A DNA stretch of 64,000 nt from Candidatus Nitrosopelagicus sp. (lineage in GTDB: Archaea > Thermoproteota > Nitrososphaeria > Nitrososphaerales > Nitrosopumilaceae): positions 62,001 to 126,000 of the forward strand of contig JAOMDA010000002.1 of NCBI GenBank assembly GCA_028345295.1, in the 5' to 3' direction. The translations under genes and the position numbers were made by a program. Every line of letters starts with the position of its first letter. Position 1 is the first letter of the stretch. Below are positions 14,127-62,502 of the stretch, piece after piece. Under the pieces are notes generated by a model that saw only the letters and a list, made by a program, of their open reading frames with translations, had not been told where the DNA came from and did no database searches.

Positions 14127-14133
14127 AATATAG
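14127..14133 (+). promoter_or_regulatory. Possible TATA box of the ilvE-lysC intergenic RNA
   Basis: AATATAG lies about 27-33 nt before 14160, the 5' edge of the predicted RNA fold and of the small frame. The region is AT-rich, so a match by chance is possible. Confidence 0.3.
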
Positions 14134-14159
14134 ATCAGATTAAATAACGAATATGATCT

Positions 14160-14255
14160 ATGATAATTAAGCGTGTTTTGGGTAACGCCGGACTAATTCT
14201 AGACGATGGTCCAAGAACAAACCCAGAATGGCACTACTGGTCTAATGACCTTTAG
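14160..14255 (+). CDS. Possible 31-aa small protein, alternative reading of the RNA interval
   Basis: An ATG at 14160 opens a 31-codon frame ending at TAG 14255, with content such as RVLGNAGLILDDGPRTNPEW, including two Trp, His and Tyr, which is protein-like rather than low-complexity. Archaeal leaderless initiation at 14160 would fit the TATA-like box. The frame ends inside helix 4 of the predicted RNA. I rank the RNA reading higher, because all parts of the interval pair. Confidence 0.25.
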   Translation: MIIKRVLGNAGLILDDGPRTNPEWHYWSNDL

Positions 14256-14272
14256 CGCCATGACGTTAATTA
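14160..14272 (+). ncRNA. Candidate structured ncRNA with a three-way junction
   Basis: The stretch is clearly richer in G+C than flanking intergenic DNA and can be folded by hand almost completely. A closing helix pairs TAATTAA(G)CGT (14164-14174) with ACGTTAATTA (14263-14272). Helix 2 pairs TTTTGGGT (14176-14183) with ACCCAGAA (14221-14228). An inner hairpin pairs GGACTA (14190-14195) with TGGTCC (14207-14212). Helix 4 is TGGC-A-CTA-CT-GGTC-TAAT-GACC-TT-TAG-C-GCCA (14229-14260). Two U-G pairs exist only on the plus strand. A T run at 14284-14288 could terminate it. It overlaps the lysC stop by 3 nt. I recognise no known RNA family. A 31-codon frame lies in the same interval. Confidence 0.45.
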
Positions 14273-15685
14273 AATAAATTTAATTTTTGACCTTTCTGAA
14301 TGTATGGCTGCAATTCCTTTTGCAACGTTATCATCAGAATCTTCTATCACAATAATTATTCTTGAAGTTTCTTCTTGTGCATCAAGATTCAAAATGTTCA
14401 AACCAGCATCACCAACTTTGGAACTTGCTTTTGACGCAATCTGCTGAACTCTCCACATCTCATCACCAATTAGTGTAATTACTCCTCTTTGGTATGAAAT
14501 ATTGGCTAGTGCATCAAAACTAAGAATATATTTCTCATTTCTATTTACATAATCCCCATCAAGAAATAGAATTCTGGCAAACTCCATTCCATCTTTTGTA
14601 AAAGGTGATAAAATGATGAATTCGCTATATCGTTTTTCTTGTTCTAATGATTCTAGTAAATTTTTTGCGCTAGATGATTCAATTCGTAATATGGCACAAT
14701 TTTTCTTCCCCGTTACTATCTTCAAGGGATGACCATTTTGTTCACTTGGCTTTCTCTGAATTCTAGTAATCTGTTCTGGTTTGTTCATATCTGTGACTAT
14801 AACTTGCATGTCCACTCCATTTTCAACAATTTCTTTGATTGCAATTGGATCAATGATTTTCATTCCAAACATACCTGCCAATCTTGCCTCATTATATGAT
14901 AGATCGCTGATTTGCTCTAATTCATCTTGCACAATTTTTGGATCTGCTGAGACCACAGAACTATCTTTTTCCAGATCAATCACCGTGTCGTATTTTTTAT
15001 GAAATAGAATTCCTATATCAGCAGCTGTTCTATCAGAACCACCTCTTTCATACGTAGTAATAATTCCGTCTTCTGTTTTACCAATAAATCCACCAATTGA
15101 CACAACGTCATTTTGTTTAACCAAATCTTCTAATTTTTCTGTGTGTTTATTAGATTGAGCAAAAACAAAGTTTGTTGATTCTATATTATTGTCTGTGATT
15201 ATAGGCCAATCATCTAGTGAAATTGACTCGGATTTTATTCCATTACTTTTTAGAACAAAATTTAGTACATGAGACATCAAAACTTCGCCAGAATATGCAA
15301 GTGCTTTTGCTCTAATTTCATCTTCAAATTTATCAAGTGCCCTTGCATCTTCCAAGGATTTCAAAGACATCTCTAACATATCACTAATTTTTGCTCTACA
15401 TTCCTCTTTGTAATCATTATTTACCATTTCAAGAATATGCGAATATGTTTCTGAAACAAGATTGAAATCAACATTCTGGACATCTTTATTTTCTCCACCC
15501 AGACCTAGTATTACATCTGTAAGCGAGGTTTTTTGACCATTAATTGTAGTTAGTGGTGCTGAACAGACAACTATGACCTTCGAGTCTTCTTTCAAATGTC
15601 TTATTCTTTCCAGTATGGTAGGCAATCCTTCACCATTAATTCCTATTGCACTTCCACCAAACTTTACGACGATTAGTTTTTCCAT
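14270..15685 (-). CDS. lysC: Aspartate kinase
   Basis: The 471-aa protein opens with the amino acid kinase signature MEKLIVVKFGGSAIG and includes SIGGFIGKTEDGIITTYERGGSDRTAADIG for catalysis and aspartate binding. The C-terminal third (from about residue 320) holds two ACT-like regulatory domains, with GDAGLNILNLDAQEE as a visible ligand stretch. The enzyme phosphorylates aspartate, the first step to threonine, methionine and lysine, and ACT domains usually give feedback control. I use ATG 15685 rather than the TTG two codons upstream. Its 3' end abuts the candidate ncRNA. Confidence 0.9.
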   Translation of the reverse strand: MEKLIVVKFGGSAIGINGEGLPTILERIRHLKEDSKVIVVCSAPLTTINGQKTSLTDVILGLGGENKDVQNVDFNLVSETYSHILEMVNNDYKEECRAKISDMLEMSLKSLEDARALDKFEDEIRAKALAYSGEVLMSHVLNFVLKSNGIKSESISLDDWPIITDNNIESTNFVFAQSNKHTEKLEDLVKQNDVVSIGGFIGKTEDGIITTYERGGSDRTAADIGILFHKKYDTVIDLEKDSSVVSADPKIVQDELEQISDLSYNEARLAGMFGMKIIDPIAIKEIVENGVDMQVIVTDMNKPEQITRIQRKPSEQNGHPLKIVTGKKNCAILRIESSSAKNLLESLEQEKRYSEFIILSPFTKDGMEFARILFLDGDYVNRNEKYILSFDALANISYQRGVITLIGDEMWRVQQIASKASSKVGDAGLNILNLDAQEETSRIIIVIEDSDDNVAKGIAAIHSERSKIKFI

Positions 15686-61515: not shown

Positions 61516-62502
61516 ATGATAAAAATTGCATCAGTAAAATTCGCTATTCCTAAAGGAAGTCTTGAAGAAGCTACATTCAAGCTACTCGAAAATTCATGGA
61601 CAAAAGTTAACAGAAAAAGTAGAACTTATCGGGTATACCTAGATGATTCTGAAATCAAAGTAAAGATGTTAAGACCACAAGAAATTCCTAATCTTGTCTC
61701 TGATGGTCTTTATGATGTTGGTATAACTGGCAAGGACTGGATTAATGAAACAAAGTCAGACGTTGAGCCATTAGTAGACCTGGAATATGGAAAGATTAAA
61801 CTAGTCATAGCCATGCCGGACAATTACAGATACAAATCATTAGATGATATGATACTGGACTATTCTAAAAAGAAGAAAGTTCTTCGAATATCCTCAGAAT
61901 ATCTGACAAATGCTTCAAAATTCATCAAGAGTTGTAAGAGTTACAAAAAGCGGTATGGATCAAAGGACCCTATGATTGTTACACCATGGATGCGTGTTGG
62001 AACCAACAAAAATGTCCAAATTCACTTGTCATTTGGTGCAACAGAGGCAAAACCACCAGATGATGTAGATGCCATAATGGATGTTACAGAAACTGGAACC
62101 ACTCTACAGCAAAACGGACTCAAGATTACTGATGTTGTGATGGAGTCTAGTGCACACCTCATTGCCAATAAAAAATCATTGAAGGATAAGAAAAAACGTG
62201 AAAAGATTTTCGATATTGTCACTCTAATGAAAGGTGCTGTACAAGGAAGAAAGTACTTGCACTTATACATGAACATTAGAAAGACAAATTTGAAAAAATT
62301 ACTAAATGATATTCCGTCACTGAAAAAACCAACAGTTAGTCCTCTAAGTGAGGAAGGTTGGTATGGCGTAAACACTGTAATTCTCAAATCAGATTTCCAC
62401 AAATTAATTCCAAAATTACGAAAGATCGCACAGGGATTAGTGGTACATGAACCAAGACAGATTCTTGAACTTGAGGAGATAAAGCGTGACGAAGAGAATT
62501 GA
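61516..62502 (+). CDS. hisG: ATP phosphoribosyltransferase, long form
   Basis: The 328-aa enzyme has VKFAIPKGSLEEATFKLL, GLYDVGITGKDWINE, VDAIMDVTETGTTLQQNGL with the PRPP-binding site, and a C-terminal ACT-like regulatory domain after about residue 240 (YLHLYMNIRKTNLKKLLNDIPSLKKPTVSPL). It starts histidine synthesis, joining ATP with PRPP, and the long form is feedback-controlled by histidine. Its stop overlaps the hisD start. Confidence 0.93.
   Translation: MIKIASVKFAIPKGSLEEATFKLLENSWTKVNRKSRTYRVYLDDSEIKVKMLRPQEIPNLVSDGLYDVGITGKDWINETKSDVEPLVDLEYGKIKLVIAMPDNYRYKSLDDMILDYSKKKKVLRISSEYLTNASKFIKSCKSYKKRYGSKDPMIVTPWMRVGTNKNVQIHLSFGATEAKPPDDVDAIMDVTETGTTLQQNGLKITDVVMESSAHLIANKKSLKDKKKREKIFDIVTLMKGAVQGRKYLHLYMNIRKTNLKKLLNDIPSLKKPTVSPLSEEGWYGVNTVILKSDFHKLIPKLRKIAQGLVVHEPRQILELEEIKRDEEN

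Follow-up and report, generated by a model that had tools for sequence, protein, structure and literature searches.

A putative ~95-nt RNA gene conserved in the archaeal family Nitrosopumilaceae: a predicted pseudoknot and probable kissing-loop homodimer, with a proposed dedicated regulator

Among RNAs that fold as H-type pseudoknots, SAM-II, preQ1 and telomerase contain a long A-rich third loop. OLE, ROOL and GOLLD are homo-oligomeric RNAs of bacterial or phage sources whose structures have been solved (PMC12286853). Functional RNA oligomers are rarely observed in nature; in the HIV-1 dimerisation site (DIS) and in the oskar 3' UTR, six-base palindromes are located in an apical loop (PMC7357161). 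In marine Euryarchaeota, the non-coding RNA Tan1 is 229 nt in length (PMC5069720).

This work describes a structured RNA gene of ~95 nt predicted at ~14169-14266 (plus strand), in the interval between ilvE and lysC, in DNA of Candidatus Nitrosopelagicus sp. ("the window" is the whole stretch of 64,000 nucleotides that was analysed, positions 62,001 to 126,000 of contig JAOMDA010000002.1). OLE, ROOL and GOLLD are its nearest counterparts in kind: like the present RNA they are stand-alone, non-coding and kept by covariation, and their intermolecular contacts include kissing loops; they are, however, large RNAs of bacteria or phages with solved structures, whereas the present RNA is small and archaeal and its dimer is a proposed one. 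In the type of contact, the palindromic kissing loops (HIV-1 DIS) are the nearest. In HIV-1 DIS, oskar and hatchet, a short loop palindrome can pair with a second copy, as proposed here, except that those palindromes reside in viral genomes, mRNAs and ribozymes, while the one under study is A+U-rich and belongs to a free-standing archaeal RNA. The strand order (stem 1, short U-rich loop 1, stem 2, A-rich loop 3) is that of SAM-II, preQ1 and telomerase, with the difference that loop 3 of the present RNA holds a hairpin (P2) and that the RNA is not the leader of a gene. Tan1 is likewise an orphan structured RNA of marine planktonic archaea; it differs in length and comes from another phylum, a distinction drawn from its description only.

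The RNA appears to be undescribed, and no Rfam family matches it. At the gathering threshold, an Rfam 15 scan of the window returned tRNAs only, none of them at this site, and neither ARAGORN nor Rfam found a tRNA or tmRNA there, in agreement with the initial annotation, which by eye had recognised no motif of tRNA, SRP, RNase P or a known riboswitch. A permissive Rfam scan of the interval gave nothing near threshold, five divergent homologues had no Rfam match up to E = 1, and OLE, ROOL and GOLLD were not matched in the Rfam scans. No conserved C/D box pair or ACA tail was apparent by eye in the alignments, and the Rfam guide models scored far below threshold. No description of the RNA was found in the literature searched, which covered few subscription papers or preprints.

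A public collection of genomes was scanned for the motif and a covariance model (R1) was built from 42 sequences; R1 matches the small-RNA body at 14169-14266 on the plus strand with 93.3 bits. The interval is richer in GC than its flanks (~0.41 vs ~0.28), as first reported in the initial annotation. Its plus-strand folding energy beats that of shuffled sequences (z = -4.2, 0/200 as good) and the minus strand folds likewise well (z = -4.7); energy alone therefore does not pick the strand, which is indicated by the promoter and by U-G pairs. At the U-G position of P2, 62 of 74 cores have U-G and 8 have U-A, which favours the plus strand and bears out an earlier remark that the U-G pairs can form on that strand only. 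On the basis of these comparisons, the locus is almost certainly a stand-alone RNA gene with putative transcription on the plus strand. The independent, undescribed small RNA that the initial annotation had put forward is thus retained, because it is conserved, covaries, stands at a constant distance from its promoter and shows no conserved reading frame, while the junction fold and the lysC antisense function attached to it are not.

A TATA box before the gene and a T run after it, both noticed earlier, can be read directly from the sequence as TTAAATA at 14140-14146 and a plus-strand T run at 14284-14288; the latter, a possible transcription stop, overlaps the end of the opposite-strand lysC. 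Of the 117 upstream regions compared, 94 have a TATA-like box that ends at a fixed distance of 22-25 nt from the RNA's GCG. By the well-established spacing of archaeal TATA boxes and start sites, transcription in the window probably starts at or near 14169-14171, 24 nt after the TATA box. Directly upstream of this box on the plus strand is the promoter element ATAGATCA (14130-14137), the right half of a family palindrome, GATCTATATAGATC(A), whose left half is worn away in the window genome. ATAGATC is invariant in the first 19 relatives, and the exact GATCTATATAGATC is present upstream of the TATA box in 52 of the 117 regions. When 12 genomes were scanned for GATCTATATAGATC (14-mer, <=1 mismatch), each genome had about one site: nine genomes carry it at the RNA gene, G026 and G143 only elsewhere, and G080 nowhere; G205 has one extra site besides. 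A regulon search of the window genome with the TATA-containing pattern (<=3 mismatches) gave no excess over control. The simplest reading is that GATCTATATAGATC would be a private operator or a strong-initiation element, and its arrangement suggests that a dedicated dimeric regulator may govern synthesis of the RNA.

The RNA appears to be confined to one family. In blastn searches of 61 genomes the element was found in 19, the window genome included. R1 matches were obtained in 192 of 250 Nitrosopumilaceae genomes and in 120 of the 131 near-complete genomes of the family (>=90% complete, <=5% contaminated), so that ~8% of the latter have no match; the RNA-bearing loci include Nitrosopumilus, Nitrosarchaeum and Cenarchaeum. 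A covariance search of the rest of the order and phylum revealed no convincing homologue, and the weak hits fetched from outside the family produced patchy alignments at chance level. Among the weak hits within Nitrosopumilaceae, that of G183 may represent a divergent paralogue. A phage or virus origin was considered and rejected: there was no phage match, and 34 viral contigs had the short motif, none with the downstream core. Loci picked by the exact motif are invariant there by construction; the R1 hits, and the divergent copies in an alignment (A5), are free of exact-motif selection, although the extraction pattern of A5 still fixes part of the core. The usual copy number is one per genome, and a few genomes possess a second, divergent copy elsewhere. 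Such second copies were seen at L225, L226, L227, L229, L230, L275 and L276; some have CCUAGG or AUCGAU loops, several have CGG/CCG in the pseudoknot helix, and their upstream regions are without the GATCTATATAGATC element. In G119 and G192 (L228 and L274) the RNA copy has decayed between intact ilvE and lysC genes; such decayed or missing copies indicate that the RNA is not essential everywhere and can be lost.

The fold proposed in the initial annotation, a closed three-way junction, is indeed the minimum-energy fold of the single sequence, but the conserved fold is a predicted pseudoknot. The 10-bp closing helix of the junction is restricted to the window genome and the relative nearest to it (L001, L002), and it falls apart in the other relatives checked; most of its 5' strand is upstream of the likely transcription start. 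Of the 8-bp helix drawn within the junction, the GGGU/ACCC part survives as half of the pseudoknot and the pairs that extend it are unconserved, while the inner hairpin corresponds to P2. The conserved architecture consists of a 4-bp 5' stem (P1), the (U)GGGU/ACCC(A) helix, the inserted P2 hairpin and a variable hairpin (P3), all given here on the plus strand. In P1, GCGU (14171-14174) pairs with ACGC (14185-14188), and in the crossing helix UGGGU (14179-14183) pairs with ACCCA (14221-14225). P2 (14190-14212) is closed by GGACU (14190-14194) and GGUCC (14208-14212) and is followed by the A-rich joining strand AAGAACAA (14213-14220); P3 occupies 14229-14260. Strands in this order make up an H-type pseudoknot whose loop 3 contains P2 and the A-rich strand.

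Pairing and covariation were tested in 74 distinct cores, in which 97.7% of the cells of the proposed structure are paired and seven pairs have two-sided changes. None of 500 shuffles reached the covariation score, and the score became much lower when partners were slid by 1-3 columns. The crossing helix has two pairs with two-sided changes, a G-C pair replaced by C-G in six cores and by A-U in one, and a U-A pair replaced by A-U in eight cores and by G-U in two; three such pairs are found in P2, and in P3 two-sided changes affect 11 of 13 pairs. P1, pairable in 100% of the 74 cores, is supported by its consistency, as it is near-invariant and covariation therefore offers no proof of it. RNAalifold by itself recovers UGGGU/ACCCA, P2 and most of P3, the crossing P1 being beyond its scope. 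The Rfam scan and covariance search that the initial annotation had recommended yielded no known family and gave covariation support to the pseudoknot helix, P2 and P3. Many unpaired bases are also invariant, among them GUU of loop 1 and most of the A-rich loop 3. In one subclade of the same genus P3 is replaced by a different hairpin with a T run in its loop; P3 being replaceable, the core would consist of the pseudoknot and P2. Taken as a whole, the comparison makes an H-type pseudoknot very probably the conserved fold.

The loop of P2 contains the palindrome UCUAGA (14198-14203, plus strand), a putative kissing-loop dimer contact. In the family pattern search, every homologue among the matches listed has a 6-nt palindrome in this loop. 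From these matches 35 distinct sequences were parsed. UCUAGA is the majority form of the loop, and the alternatives are UCAUGA, UCGCGA, CCUAGG and AUCGAU. UCAUGA arose in three lineages separated by well-supported branches of the lysC tree and UCGCGA in a fourth, and CCUAGG and AUCGAU were found in second copies (paralogues). Among the matches listed, changes in the palindrome are always paired double changes and no single-step intermediate was seen; single substitutions never keep a palindrome, and of the 135 possible double substitutions of UCUAGA only 9 preserve one. Were the two central bases to change only together and randomly, self-complementarity would still survive in one third of cases, and for this reason the lack of single-step forms is the strongest part of the argument. 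Most copies have UCUAGA and the argument rests on ~6 events, part of which could be explained by multi-nucleotide mutation. The pairing of UCUAGA is weak in isolation (-5.2 kcal/mol). From this pattern of compensated change, we consider it likely that two copies of the RNA pair through their P2 loops as a kissing-loop homodimer; the RNA gene, the pseudoknot and the dimer taken together are still probable, by a slightly smaller measure. In G081, G089 and G121 the palindrome of the second copy differs from that of the first, which, if the dimer is real, would keep the two dimers separate and non-mixing.

In at least 118 of the 153 loci examined, both ilvE and lysC lie beside the RNA, and many of the remaining loci end too early to tell; wherever a locus was read in detail, ilvE and lysC run opposite to the RNA. 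One subclade of the genus to which the window belongs has the RNA at a site with no lysC nearby, between two other genes; judging from the ORFs, one of these is pyridoxamine-oxidase-like and the other encodes a small membrane protein. The presence of the RNA at another locus indicates that it is a unit of its own and not part of lysC. A short form of the RNA, found in a subclade of the same genus (L014, L016-L019) and at another locus, has lost P3 and is followed by a hairpin, GAAGACAG-T run-CTGTCTTC, that resembles a bidirectional terminator. In several relatives a small predicted membrane protein (MEW..GF.AIILL..GL..AFEMRKIR..) is encoded between ilvE and the RNA (plus-strand ORFs at L233 1132-1404, L012 1188-1454 and L228 1470-1688); it was not seen in the window.

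Several other explanations of the locus were weighed. The initial annotation had read the RNA as able to pair with the antisense transcript of lysC, and the gene does point at the 3' end of the opposite-strand lysC, which its T run reaches; but the last helix, P3, ends at 14260, short of the lysC stop at 14270, a conserved overlap with lysC was not found and the subclade copy is far from lysC, so that a cis-antisense RNA of lysC is very improbable as the core function. Still less credible, to the point of being dismissed, is a small protein gene: a 31-codon frame (14160-14255) is open in the window, but the corresponding frame is stopped in 80 of 105 homologues, 79 of the 105 have stops in every plus-strand frame, core lengths fall into all three residues modulo 3 and no conserved open frame emerged from the comparison of the 105 homologues. 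A riboswitch leader was rejected as well, as a leader requires a conserved same-strand gene on its 3' side and none follows the RNA, ilvE and lysC being on the opposite strand. The same absence of a following gene weighs, as do the RNA's own promoter and the fact that no riboswitch or ribozyme family matched it, against a free-standing aptamer or self-cleaving ribozyme built on the pseudoknot core, dimeric or not. The many invariant unpaired bases in loop 1 and loop 3 are what ligand-binding or catalytic pseudoknots would have, and palindromic dimer contacts occur in hatchet ribozymes and guanidine-II aptamers (PMC7357161); an aptamer or ribozyme is nevertheless unlikely.

An equally unlikely alternative is an sRNA that base-pairs with mRNAs in trans. 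Many archaeal sRNAs are thought to act in this way and the A-rich strand could serve as a seed, but complements of the seed CCAAGAACAAACC were no commoner than control and no target was shared among the 12 genomes searched with this one seed; in addition, the conserved strands are mostly engaged within the pseudoknot. Somewhat less unlikely, yet improbable in our judgement, is a structured RNA that stays monomeric and keeps its loop palindrome for another reason, for instance because a symmetric protein binds the loop or the gene's DNA. Palindromes are typical of DNA sites for dimeric proteins, the promoter carries a palindrome too, and in many copies the loop, AUCUAGAU, is similar to ATCTA, the half-site of the promoter. 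In L093, L096 and L011, however, the loop has become UCAUGA or UCGCGA while ATAGATCA is unchanged, which argues against one DNA-binding protein reading both sites. The kissing-loop homodimer is the reading we prefer.

We propose that the RNA would be transcribed from its own TATA promoter on the plus strand as a molecule of ~95-110 nt starting at or next to GCG, that its 5' end would be tucked into the H-type pseudoknot with P2 and the A-rich strand carried by the third loop, and that the 3' hairpin and T run would end and protect the transcript. Two such molecules would most likely dimerise by pairing their palindromic P2 loops (UCUAGA), and a dedicated dimeric regulator bound at GATCTATATAGATC beside the TATA box would control synthesis. 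The dimer might then act in trans by offering a protein a pair of identical pseudoknot heads and so serving as its scaffold or decoy, a role that we regard as speculative and on the unlikely side. The full proposal, i.e., a family-wide archaeal RNA that is a kissing-loop homodimer of pseudoknots and has its own dedicated regulator, is put forward tentatively, with a little less than balanced confidence.

This RNA is carried by some of the ocean's most abundant ammonia oxidisers. That it is family-wide, mostly single-copy and served by a promoter element specific to it points to an undescribed step of their physiology. If the dimer is real, it would provide a model of RNA quaternary structure under natural selection that is very small and readily synthesised, and for which the natural compensatory variants UCUAGA, UCAUGA, UCGCGA and CCUAGG are at hand for swap tests. 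Compensatory evolution would then be maintaining the quaternary structure of a natural RNA of very small size, a case for which we know of no other example in Archaea.
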